Below are positions 7,648-24,067 of a DNA stretch of 64,000 nucleotides, in pieces. A program made the position numbers and the translations under genes. Positions within the stretch are counted from its first letter, which is position 1. Every line of letters begins with the position of its first letter. The notes beneath the pieces were generated by a model. The model searched no databases. It was not told the origin of the DNA and was given only the letters and a program-made list of their open reading frames with translations. Location: NCBI RefSeq assembly GCF_000092045.1, contig NC_007761.1, forward strand, positions 1,429,001 through 1,493,000, read 5' to 3'. The stretch is from Rhizobium etli CFN 42 (GTDB taxonomy: Bacteria; Pseudomonadota; Alphaproteobacteria; Rhizobiales; Rhizobiaceae).

Positions 7648-10600
7648 ATGTATCGCAATTCTCGCCGGTGGACTTCGCGCTCATTCCTGGTGGATTCCTT
7701 AGTGCCTCGATGGTTGACCGTCGGCGGAAAGGAAAGACCGCGCAAACCTGCCGAAAAGCATGCCGAAAAGCATAAGGATAGTGCTCAACTTGCGGCATCG
7801 GTGCAAACCGCCGATGAACACAAGCAGGGCACCCTTGCCGACGATCCCTATAAGGATGTGGCCCTCAACGAGCATGAGGGCGGGCAGAGAGCACACGTGA
7901 ACGGCGCCGCGGACAACGGCCTCGAAGAGCGGCCCTTGCCTGACACTTTCGCAACGCCTGGCGAAATGGGAATTCCAAGCGGTGATGCGGCCGCGCTGTC
8001 AGCTCTCATGCCGGATTTTGCGAGTTTCCCGGGGCACGCGGATGGAGTTGCGTTCGGGGCTGGATCGTCCCTTCTGGGCGACGATCCTCTGGCTTCCTAT
8101 CTGCCGCAAAGCCCTGCACCGACAGCTTCGGGGCAAGGTGCTCCTAAGGTGGCGGTCGGGCGTGCTCATTCGGGCAAGGTCGTCATTCTCGAATCGAGCC
8201 CGTCAGGGCAGCCGACTGCGCACGACGCCGGCGCGAGTTCGCTCGCTTTCGGCATGCCCTTTGGCGTGTGCGGGTGCGGCTACTTTACTTCCCCCACGCG
8301 GATTCTCGATTGGGCTCATGGCGGTGCCCTGCTTCAGCAGGACGGTCAATTGCCCGGGACCAGGCTGACCGAAGGGCCGGACTTTGTGGCGACGATCAAG
8401 CAGGCCATCGGCGCCTCGATCAGCGATCCGCTTCTCGATCGTGACCTGTCCCCGCTCTCGGGCTGGCCCGGCACTGCAACATGGTCGGACGCGGCGCTCA
8501 CCAATGGAACCCTGCCTGGCGGGGGAGAGACGGGAACGGGAACCAAATCCAAGGATAGCGGTATCCTGTCCGGCTCTGTGACGAAGCCACCTAAAACTTC
8601 TACGCAGGGGTCATCGACAACGCAAAGTCTGGCAATCACGGCGGCGGCTGCCAGTAATGCCATCGTGCTGGAAAACCAGAAGCAGGGCAATCCGGAGAGC
8701 GAGTGGGGCATCGCCGGCGCCGGTAGCTCCAATATCGAAGGGTTTGCGACCGACATCAGCGTCGACAACGGCAAAACGATCAGCTTCAAGATCAATACAA
8801 ATTCCACCAACTACCGGATCGACATCTATCGGCTCGGCTATTATGGCGGCATGGGGGCGCGCAAGGTCGCGACCCTGCAGCACACCGGATTGCAGACGCA
8901 GCCCAGTCCGTTGCGCAATGCCACGACCGGAACGGTGGACGCCGGCAACTGGGCCGTCTCGGCGTCGTGGACCGTACCGGATGATGCCGTCTCGGGCGTC
9001 TACATCGCCAAGCTCGTGCGTCAGGATGGCACCTCCGGCTCAAATCACATTCCGTTCATCGTGCGCGACGACGACAGCCACAGCGACGTCGTGTTCCAGA
9101 CCGCGGATGAGACTTGGCAGGCTTACAACGGCTGGGGTGGCGCAAACCTCTATGGCGGCAACGGGCCGGCGACGGGGCAGGGTGCCGGTCGCGCCTATGC
9201 GGTCAGCTACAACAGGCCGATCGCTACCCGCGGCGGGGTCGGCACCTACGCCGGTCCCCAGGATTATCTGTTCGGCGCCGAATATGCGGGTATCTACTGG
9301 CTGGAACAGAACGGTTATGACGTCTCCTACTTGTCGGGCCTCGACGTCGACCGCTACGGCAGCCTGTTGCTCAATCACAAGACCTATGTCGATGCCGGGC
9401 ATGACGAATACTGGTCGGGACAGCAGAGGACCAATGTCGAGGCGGCGCGCGACGCGGGCGTTAACCTGATGTTCTGGAGCGGCAACGAAGTCTATTGGCG
9501 TACCCGCTGGGGCAACGCCTATAGCGCCGACGGCACACCTTACCGCACTCTGATCACCTACAAGGAGACATGGGCCGGCGGCGATATCGATCCTTCCGAC
9601 CAATGGACCGGTACCTTCCGCGATCCACGCTTCAGTCCACCTGCCATTGGCGGCGGCAATCCGGAGAATTCGCTGACCGGCCAACTGTTCAAGGTCGACG
9701 ATGTCGGCAGCAACCTCGGTGCGATCACCGTTGGCTATGATGATGCCAACCTTCGCTTCTGGCGCAATACGAGCGTTGCCAATCTTCAGCCCGGGCAGAC
9801 GGCGACGCTCACCAAAAACTATCTCGGTTACGAGTGGGACGAAGCGCCCGATAACGGCTTCGATCCGGCTGGCCTGGTGAAGCTGTCGTCGACGACGCTT
9901 CCGGTCAGCACTTACCTGCTCGATTACGGAAACACGACCGGCAATGCCACCGCGACCCACAATCTGACGCTCTATCGTGCCCCCAGCGGCGCGCTGGTGT
10001 TCGGCGCCGGCACGGTCTACTGGACCTGGGGGCTCAGCGACAATCACGACCTCACGGCGACCCAGACGGACCCGCGCGTGCAGCAGGCAATGGTCAATTT
10101 GCTTGCCGATATGGGCATTCAGCCCGGGACGCTTCAATCCGGGCTCACCGCCGCAACCGTGTCGTTGGACCACACTGCGCCGACATCGGTCATCACGGTG
10201 CCCGCCACGGCGACCGTCGGATCCACCGTGACGATTACCGGCACCGCTGCCGATTCGGGGGGCGGGGTCATCGCCGCGGTCGAGGTTTCGACCGACAACG
10301 GGGCGAGCTGGCATCCGGCGACCGGCGATGAGAACTGGACCTATACCTGGCAACCGCAAACCACGGGCACCTATACCATCCGGTCTCGCGCAGTCGATGA
10401 TAACGTCAATCTGGAAACGCCCTCGGCGGGACGAACGGTCACCGTCAGCGGACCGAATTACACCTCTCTCTTCGGTTCGGCGACGCCAGCGGTCGTCAAC
10501 ACCAACGATACCTCGGCCGTTGAACTCGGCTTCAAATTCCAGACCTCCGTGGCAGGAACGGTCACCGGCATTCGTTTTTATAAGGGCAGCCAGGATACCG

Positions 10601-22607: not shown

Positions 22608-24067
22608 GCGCGCGTGTCAGAAAATCCGGCGAGAACCTGCCAGTTCCATCAGACAAGGGCGCCTCAGACCATGGCCCTTCAGACAAGGTGCCGCCAGGCA
22701 GGGGCGGGCAGCTCGTCGCTCGCCTGCCGCTGCCGCCGGCAATTGCGGAATTCCAGTCCGACGCCGTCGAGCTCGAGGAACGTGCTCCGCCGCGCGTTGC
22801 GCGCATGACGCTCTATTGCGTGACGGCGCTAATTGCTGCGACCATCATCTGGGCCTCCGTTTCTGATATCGACGAGGTGGTGATTGCGCCCGGCAAGCTC
22901 GTTACCACCCAGCCGACCATCGTCGTCCAGCCGCTCGAAACCTCGATCATCCGCACGATCGATGTGAAGGCCGGCGAGGTCGTGCATGCCGGCCAAACGC
23001 TCGCAACCCTTGACGCCACTTTCAGCCAGGCCGACGTCGACCAGCAGCAGGCGAAGTTCTCGGCACTCGACGCCCAGGTGAAGCGCATCGAGGCGGAACT
23101 TGCCGGAGACGACTACACCATGATGGCGGGAACAACGCCCGACGAGATGCTGCAGGTGCAGCTCTTCGGCCAGCGGCGGGCCTTCTACACCGCGCAGCTG
23201 CAGAATTTCGAGCAGCAGATCGCCGGCCAGTCGGCAGCGCTTGCCGCCAGCAGGAACCAGGAGGCAGTGCTCATCGACCGGCGCGACACGCTCTCGCAGA
23301 TCGAAGGCGCGCGCACGCGGCTCTACGACAAGCAGAGCGGCTCGCTGATCACCATGCTCGGCTCGCGCGACGCCCGCCTCGACGTCGAATCTGATCTGAC
23401 CGCCGTGCGCGGCAAGGCCGACGAGGCGGCGCATGCCTTTGCCAAGCTGAAAGCCGACCGGCAGGCCTTTATCGAAGATTTCCGCCGCGCCGCGATGGAA
23501 CAGCTGGTGGAGCTGCGCGGACAGCGCGACATGGCGGATGAAGAGCTGAAGAAGATGGAGCTGCGCCGCAACATGGTGTCGCTGACAGCACCTGCCGACG
23601 CCGTCGTGCTCGATCTTGCCCAGCGCTCTATCGGCTCCGTCGTGCGCGAAGCCGAACCGGTCGTGACCCTGGTGCCGATCAACGTGCCGCTCGAAGCGGA
23701 AGTGTCGATCAACACCCGCGACATCGGCCGCATCGCCGTGGGTAAGGAGGCCCGCATCAAGCTAGACGCCTATCCCTTCCAGAAATACGGCACCGCGTCG
23801 GGCGAAGTTCGCACTATCAGCGAGGACACGTTTATGACCGGCCAGCAGTCGGAACAGACCGCCACCCCGAGCCAGCCGGCCGCCCCCTTCTTCAAGGCGC
23901 GCATCCTGCTTGCCGATACGAGACTGAACGTCTCGGACGTGCCGGTCAGACTGCTGCCGGGCATGACCGTCTCCACAGAGATCAAGGTCGGCAAAAGGAC
24001 GGTGATCTCGTATTTCCTCTATCCGCTGCTGCGCGGCCTGGATGATGCCATCCGGGAACCGAACTGA
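22604..24067 (+). CDS. HlyD-family type I secretion periplasmic adaptor
   Basis: 487-aa membrane-fusion protein linking the ABC exporter to an outer-membrane channel. A Pro/Ser-rich cytoplasmic N-terminus (1-65) precedes one membrane helix (about 67-88) and the first half of the lipoyl-like domain (VIAPGKLVTTQPTIVVQPL). A long coiled-coil hairpin (about 120-310) follows. The second lipoyl half and beta-barrel contain MVSLTAPADAVVLDLA and VGKEARIKLDAYPFQKYG. ATG 22604 overlaps the exporter stop by 4 bases, with AGGCAGG just upstream. Hairpins without T-runs lie after the stop (24083-24120), where the locus converges on the alpha/beta hydrolase gene. Confidence 0.94.
   Translation: MSARVRKSGENLPVPSDKGASDHGPSDKVPPGRGGQLVARLPLPPAIAEFQSDAVELEERAPPRVARMTLYCVTALIAATIIWASVSDIDEVVIAPGKLVTTQPTIVVQPLETSIIRTIDVKAGEVVHAGQTLATLDATFSQADVDQQQAKFSALDAQVKRIEAELAGDDYTMMAGTTPDEMLQVQLFGQRRAFYTAQLQNFEQQIAGQSAALAASRNQEAVLIDRRDTLSQIEGARTRLYDKQSGSLITMLGSRDARLDVESDLTAVRGKADEAAHAFAKLKADRQAFIEDFRRAAMEQLVELRGQRDMADEELKKMELRRNMVSLTAPADAVVLDLAQRSIGSVVREAEPVVTLVPINVPLEAEVSINTRDIGRIAVGKEARIKLDAYPFQKYGTASGEVRTISEDTFMTGQQSEQTATPSQPAAPFFKARILLADTRLNVSDVPVRLLPGMTVSTEIKVGKRTVISYFLYPLLRGLDDAIREPN

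Follow-up and report, generated by a model that had tools for sequence, protein, structure and literature searches.

A conserved rhizobial gene set of giant amidase-domain proteins, paired COG0523 GTPases and a predicted BltDE-type type I exporter

Why should two giant proteins with an amidase-type domain each be followed by a COG0523 GTPase, and why should both pairs lie ahead of a type I exporter? The question is raised by a stretch of 64,000 nucleotides from Rhizobium etli CFN 42 (contig NC_007761.1, positions 1,429,001 to 1,493,000; this whole stretch is termed the window), in which seven genes on one strand occupy positions 7648-24067. They encode giant G1 and its GTPase, giant G2 and its GTPase, a small protein of 102 amino acids (aa) termed P102, an ABC exporter and a HlyD-type adaptor (Table 1). 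An earlier, sequence-only reading had taken this arrangement for a duplicated, self-contained and previously undescribed system that metallates and exports its giants; the arrangement itself was confirmed. The explanation that we consider probable, with some reserve, is that of a dedicated type I module of the BltDE kind, made up of an export part and a maturation part.

Part of the answer was already in print. Published work is cited here by PMC number, from the part of each paper that was available. In strain 3841 (R. leguminosarum / R. johnstonii), pRL90159 (179 kDa) and pRL90161 (184 kDa) were reported to lie ‘just upstream’ of bltDE (pRL90164/165), and both were predicted to be type I substrates and proposed to be exported (PMC2275737, 2008). 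The masses computed here for the 3841 giants are 178.6 and 183.9 kDa, against the published 179 and 184, and their two and four copies of DUF4082 agree with that paper's two and four ~140-aa repeats. With the exporter and adaptor also downstream of the giants, the locus is orthologous and, from gene order, number, sizes and repeats, pRL90159-165 would be the orthologs of the seven genes. The link between exporter and giants has thus been known since 2008, and the system is real, conserved and partly described; the idea that nothing of the kind was on record does not hold. The accounts differ in that the amidase domain is absent from the available part of PMC2275737, the main text of which has no occurrence of pRL90160, pRL90163 or words starting with GTP. 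Within the Creative Commons-licensed text of PMC, no paper was found that names pRL90160, pRL90162 or pRL90163, or that has dimethylformamidase together with CobW, and DUF4082 came up in a single paper; nor did these searches turn up the helper and its docking-type tail, a GTPase branch paired with clients, the preserved amidase site or the division into two parts. The main text of an attachment screen (PMC11406972) names no pRL9 gene, and none of the terms CobW, GTPase, COG0523 and DUF4082 occurs in the available text of a study of R. leguminosarum zinc transporters (PMC12183173).

Conservation of the gene order was examined in 80 loci similar to G2, a set biased to close relatives. The order giant, GTPase, P102, BltD, BltE is repeated in nearly all of those with enough DNA. 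It is also seen more widely in the Rhizobiales, and once outside them (L243). Counts pooled over these and the other loci fetched, a set drawn mostly by similarity to G2, took identical contigs once (L137 = L023, L135 = L035, L145 = L056) and allowed 6 kb downstream of the giant for the GTPase, 8 kb for P102, 10 kb for BltD and 12 kb for BltE. Among the 105 amidase giants with >6 kb of downstream DNA, a GTPase was present for 96, P102 for 83, BltD for 95, BltE for 95 and all four for 78; the 27 partial rows include 17 giants of the G1 type, 16 of which lie one gene pair more distant from the exporter. Homologues without a neighbouring GTPase or exporter, a majority of which would have spoken against the sequence-only reading, are a minority among close relatives. 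The system is also common in Rhizobium (109 of 208 matching plasmid records).

In an even sample over the order (297 genomes), the amidase domain occurs in 82 genomes, and 23 of the 24 amidase hits with open frames of at least 950 aa were fetched. A ZigA-like GTPase adjoins 16 of these 23 giants, one of them only if its contig is treated as a circle; one of the remaining seven is cut by a contig end and six have no GTPase. The chance of a GTPase within a 20-kb stretch is roughly estimated at <1%. The P102-exporter set is present in 13 of the 20 genomes holding these giants. Short amidases of this family have neither GTPase nor exporter close by; a ZigA-like GTPase was found near 0 of the 12 cases looked at (L162-L173, mostly the best-scoring). 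P102 was detected strongly in 13 of the 297 genomes and weakly in 3, with up to 16 candidates scored per genome, and all 13 strong cases have such a giant. Outside the order, the whole module was found in one (L243) of the 11 long hits fetched.

The exceptional arrangements are informative as to how the set is built. Three genomes (G035, G194 and G171), all from one family, have the giant and its GTPase ~20, 37 and 53 kb away from P102-BltD-BltE, and in a further member of that family (G270), in which no ZigA-like gene was found at E <= 1e-60, the giant is followed by P102-BltD-BltE and lacks a GTPase. A Methylovirgula plasmid (L177:263-15954) carries a 3459-aa DUF4082 giant that has no amidase domain, followed by P102-BltD-BltE; the 24 kb seen have no GTPase of this kind but do have a HlyC-like acyltransferase, and this giant is perhaps an acylated substrate of P102 type. 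On three Azospirillum plasmids P102-BltD-BltE stand beside polysaccharide genes, with no amidase or GTPase in the 11-18 kb seen. Because giant plus GTPase and P102-BltDE are split or occur apart in these relatives, the module appears to consist of two separable parts, in which P102 tends to accompany the exporter, and the GTPase the amidase. A stretch of S. meliloti pSymB (L182:9001-13742), where fragments of a DUF4082 protein lie with short genes for exporter and adaptor, is apparently a decayed copy.

The exporter matches ABC_membrane and ABC_tran above the Pfam cut-offs. Its best model is the HlyB type I model TIGR01846, at 683 bits, below the cut-off of 726, while models of bacteriocin export reach 437 bits and less. 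The adaptor scores 311 bits against TIGR01843 (cut-off 209). An ABC exporter with fused permease and ATPase and a HlyD-type adaptor are therefore both present, as type I secretion requires. No gene for an outer-membrane channel of the TolC type is among the seven, the genome itself not having been searched for one, and ‘self-contained’ thus claims too much. The exporter has a C39-like domain in which, judged by eye, Thr appears to stand at the position of the peptidase Cys (HTNLHC...). At one other locus (L159:1033-1425) P102 is separated from a full BltD-type gene by a short frame resembling this domain.

The giants themselves point to the same route. A C-terminal tail of the form [LI][AVSTG][AG], typically PQLAA, is present on 99 of the 100 giants that have BltD within 10 kb, the exception (L070) being apparently frameshifted. 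Giants with no local exporter carry the tail in 8 of 17 cases; of the genomes of these eight, seven were searched, and BltD was found elsewhere in all seven. Six genomes with tail-less giants were also searched, and five had no BltD at E <= 1e-120. The natural reading of the tail is that of a substrate signal. In its ABC exporter with a C39-like domain, its HlyD adaptor and the conserved C-terminal tails of its putative substrates the set resembles HlyB/HlyD type I secretion; it differs in that G1 and G2 have no Pfam or NCBIfam match to RTX nonapeptide repeats at E <= 0.001. A relative from R. giardinii (L074:7247-14671, 2474 aa) does, by eye, have RTX-like repeats, and a DUF4347-like start before its amidase domain. 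Together with the correlation of tail and exporter, this favours the earlier view that the neighbouring type I exporter has the giants as its substrates.

P102 has a tail of its own. All 88 copies that stand directly before an exporter have a linker that differs in length and, at its end, SPNF or SSNF with a further 1-4 residues, and the SPNF-type tail is kept in the Azospirillum copies at about 40-44% identity. Among six copies that are not directly before an exporter only one has it, and that one (L159) lies 659 bp from its exporter; the five tail-less copies are near complete in L057, L072 and L074 (the last of these following the R. giardinii giant), a 76-aa frame in L178 and, in L160, a protein that continues for 23 residues beyond SPNF. 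The SPNF tail is most naturally read as a docking motif of a helper. The remainder is predicted, with modest confidence, to form three strands and one long helix. A role as metal carrier was considered and is unlikely, as 2 of 94 copies contain Cys and 7 of 94 have His among their first 70 aa. According to a 2014 review (PMC4257090), no type I substrate other than HasA is known to depend strictly on SecB, and a helper encoded beside the exporter would act as SecB does for HasA; however, no profile similarity of P102 to SecB was found (hhalign probability 0.1, against 4 for DUF3467, both with shallow profiles).

The maturation part centres on the amidase-type domain. A profile of 23 family members matched the structures of the dimethylformamidase (DMFase) large subunit (6lvb, E 4.6e-125) and of N-acetyl-(R)-beta-phenylalanine acylase (8huy, E 2.9e-143). 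The Paracoccus DMFase large subunit, DmfA2, holds its iron by Y399, Y440 and E521, and activity was lost in mutants of H519, N547 and E657 (PMC7686228). All six residues align to identical residues in both G1 and G2, which bears out the earlier proposal of an iron-enzyme domain in so far as both giants hold an intact metal-enzyme site. This six-residue site (YYHENE) is intact in 37 of 37 aligned giants, including six for which the stretch seen shows no GTPase. Of 12 further family members, one has D for N and the rest have the same six letters; judged from these residues, the metal site is intact independently of a neighbouring GTPase. The giants thus share with DmfA2 and the acylase (8huy, 8i5a) the catalytic domain family and the six iron-site and catalytic residues of DmfA2, and differ in that the domain is fused to DUF4082 and cadherin repeats and linked to an exporter. 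Dimethylformamide is an unlikely substrate. A single-copy model of DUF4082 (predicted local distance difference test score 94.5, predicted template modelling score 0.90) gave ten Foldseek matches at E <= 0.001, including four PHR-domain chains and several phage structural proteins, with template modelling (TM) scores of 0.49-0.60 and root mean square deviations of 5.9-8.8 A against the PHR and phage chains. DUF4082 is therefore predicted to be a PHR-like beta-sandwich of the binding type. The amidase giants have open frames of 977 to 2483 aa, comparable to adhesin-like proteins.

Both window GTPases fall below the cut-offs of the ZigA model NF038288 (565.8 and 564.1 bits; cut-off 600) and of the CobW model TIGR02475 (158 and 164 bits; cut-off 332). 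Of 29 module GTPases, 26 are on a branch of their own, apart from solitary ZigA; of the other three, L270 groups with the solitary copies, whereas L266 and L075 belong to neither group. His244 is present in 24 of the 29 module GTPases against 0 of 13 solitary copies. The trees of the giants and of the GTPases both hold the type B clade (100/99 and 100/97), and their distances correlate at 0.77 (0.54 when one long branch is left out), with 0 of 5000 permutations as high. On these trees the two giant-GTPase pairs are ancient paralogues and not a local duplication, which corrects the description of the module as duplicated.

A Zur box, scored as mismatches of 17 with the solitary copies as positive controls and no shuffled control, was found at 12 of 13 solitary ZigA-like genes (0-4 mismatches; exception L277) and at 0 of 30 module rows (28 distinct). 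One control, L003 (G000:C2:2823017-2827213), is a genome's solitary ZigA-like gene that adjoins, by eye, a znuA-like gene, with Zur-type boxes before both. Because most module GTPases are not first in their operon, the regions before the giants are the telling ones. No box was found before the window operon or before the giants: in 123 such regions (three from a contig taken twice) the best match had 5 mismatches in 1, 6 in 15, 7 in 46, 8 in 56 and 9 in 5, and GTPases lying ahead of their giant (L260, L262, L263 and L270) gave 6-9. Control of the module by zinc starvation through Zur was therefore rejected, since it has no boxes whereas the solitary copies have them. The module GTPases thus differ from ZigA in score, mostly in branch, in the lack of a Zur box and in their pairing with a gene the product of which is probably a secreted client.

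The gene set, the intact active sites, the tails, the parallel phylogenies and the absence of Zur boxes are consistent with the following mechanism. BltD and BltE would recognise the giants by their extreme C-terminus of the PQLAA type. P102 would be a cytoplasmic export helper, the folded part of which binds the giant or keeps it competent for export while the flexible SPNF tail docks on the exporter. Each giant's amidohydrolase domain, with its iron-type site of two Tyr and one Glu, would be served by its own COG0523 GTPase, which may handle the metal before or during export, and we infer metal delivery to the giant as its task; alternatively, the GTPase could exclude the wrong metal, or provide the metal while P102 holds the chain. 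Once exported, the amidase domain would fold with its metal and cut an amide, and the DUF4082 and cadherin beta-sandwich repeats would attach the giant to the surface or matrix. A more specific proposal is decidedly tentative: that P102, a small fold connected through its variable linker to a conserved C-terminal peptide (SPNF) for docking on the exporter, is a dedicated targeting factor in the cytoplasm, of a kind new to type I secretion, and coupled to a one-client sub-branch of COG0523 that matches metal supply to the export of an unfolded giant.

Several points weigh against this explanation. For strain 3841, a change in supernatant proteins was not observed on mutation of bltD (PMC2275737, data not shown). 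Five giants with no GTPase in the stretch seen (L140, L143, L156, L178 and L180), and a sixth cut by a contig end (L139), have the full active site; because they keep YYHENE, the GTPase is not strictly needed for the site, and joint loss of GTPase and metal site was rejected. Of the claim that the system metallates and exports, export has gained support, whereas metallation by the GTPase has not. Unfolded passage is presumed for type I substrates (PMC4257090), so that metal loading of a folded domain before export is disfavoured. Zinc rather than iron is the preferred metal of YeiR and YjiA, COG0523 proteins other than CobW (PMC7895991). No relative of P102 among chaperones has been demonstrated. 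A Microvirga genome (L075) has BltD and a tail-less giant. Finally, the rows are related and carry no correction for species history, so that the counts and the correlation overstate independence.

It is also conceivable, though on balance unlikely, that the GTPase has nothing to do with the giant's metal and is a zinc-housekeeping copy of ZigA linked to the operon, the real system being giant, P102 and exporter. The three module GTPases that fall outside the common branch weigh somewhat in its favour. The separate branch of the others, the contrast in Zur boxes and His244, and the way in which the GTPases track the giant phylogeny, even where giant and GTPase lie far from the exporter, argue instead for the paired GTPase of the proposed module.

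A different place for P102 may also be considered, since the DMFase large subunit of Paracoccus is inactive without its small subunit (PMC7686228), and in L057, L072 and L074 P102 directly follows the giant with no GTPase or exporter nearby; P102 could then be a second amidase subunit. These three copies, however, are without the SPNF tail, P102 accompanies exporters in stretches that have no amidase, and its predicted topology differs from the four helices and two strands of the small subunit (PMC7686228), all of which makes the subunit role improbable. No small-subunit gene was recognised among the seven, no small-subunit profile having been run. Least probable of all, in our judgement, is the published interpretation of the giants as bacteriocin-like toxins leaving by a bacteriocin- or lantibiotic-type exporter, which was based on exporter similarity (PMC2275737) and is restated in a 2024 review (PMC10925705). 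The giants combine an intact amidohydrolase site with adhesin-type repeats and have no bacteriocin or RTX family match at E <= 0.001, the exporter scores higher as HlyB than with any bacteriocin-export model, and an immunity gene was recognised in none of the seven.

The type I module with its paired GTPases matters in two respects. For over half of the COG0523 GTPases a family survey (PMC2770081) gives the client as unknown. Because the GTPase branch co-evolves with a single neighbouring gene, the metal site of which is known from the structure of a relative, its client and metal are directly testable; if a type I substrate does have a GTPase as its metal chaperone, the question arises of how metal supply fits unfolded export. 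P102 with its SPNF tail is a candidate dedicated type I targeting factor, and the system may shape the surface of legume symbionts.

Table 1. Features of the seven-gene set, in window coordinates
Feature	Position	Strand	Remarks
Giant G1, 1709 aa	7648..12777	+	DMFA2_C amidase-type domain, 2 DUF4082, cadherin/Ig/VCBS repeats; C-terminus ...DVVFRPQLVA; type B; probable ortholog pRL90159
G1 codons of the six iron-site/catalytic residues	9124..9834	+	Y493, Y502, H585, E587, N613, E729
COG0523 GTPase of G1	12774..14063	+	
Giant G2, 1506 aa	14268..18788	+	Amidase-type domain, 3 DUF4082, cadherin-like repeats; C-terminus ...DVAFKPQLAA; type A; probable ortholog pRL90161
G2 codons of the six iron-site/catalytic residues	15399..16130	+	Y378, Y387, H483, E485, N511, E621
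COG0523 GTPase of G2	18807..20039	+	
P102, small protein, 102 aa	20113..20421	+	Predicted three strands and helix, variable linker, conserved C-terminal SPNFN
ABC exporter	20463..22607	+	Probable BltD (pRL90164) ortholog
HlyD-type adaptor	22577..24067	+	Probable BltE (pRL90165) ortholog; TIGR01843 above cut-off

A sigma-70 promoter scan gave a result no better than chance, and Tandem Repeats Finder reported no long array. G1 does contain a 300-nucleotide repeat (window:10933-11910), in two copies that are 94% identical and spaced by 678 nucleotides. Because the open frames of G1-type giants differ in length from strain to strain (about 1300-2375 aa), the copy number of this repeat probably varies between strains. 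Directly upstream of the set, window:685-7047 has matches to surface-polysaccharide families (an epimerase, a DegT aminotransferase, a flippase-type protein and a Wza-like export protein), and the divergent Wza-like neighbour is retained at many Rhizobium loci.

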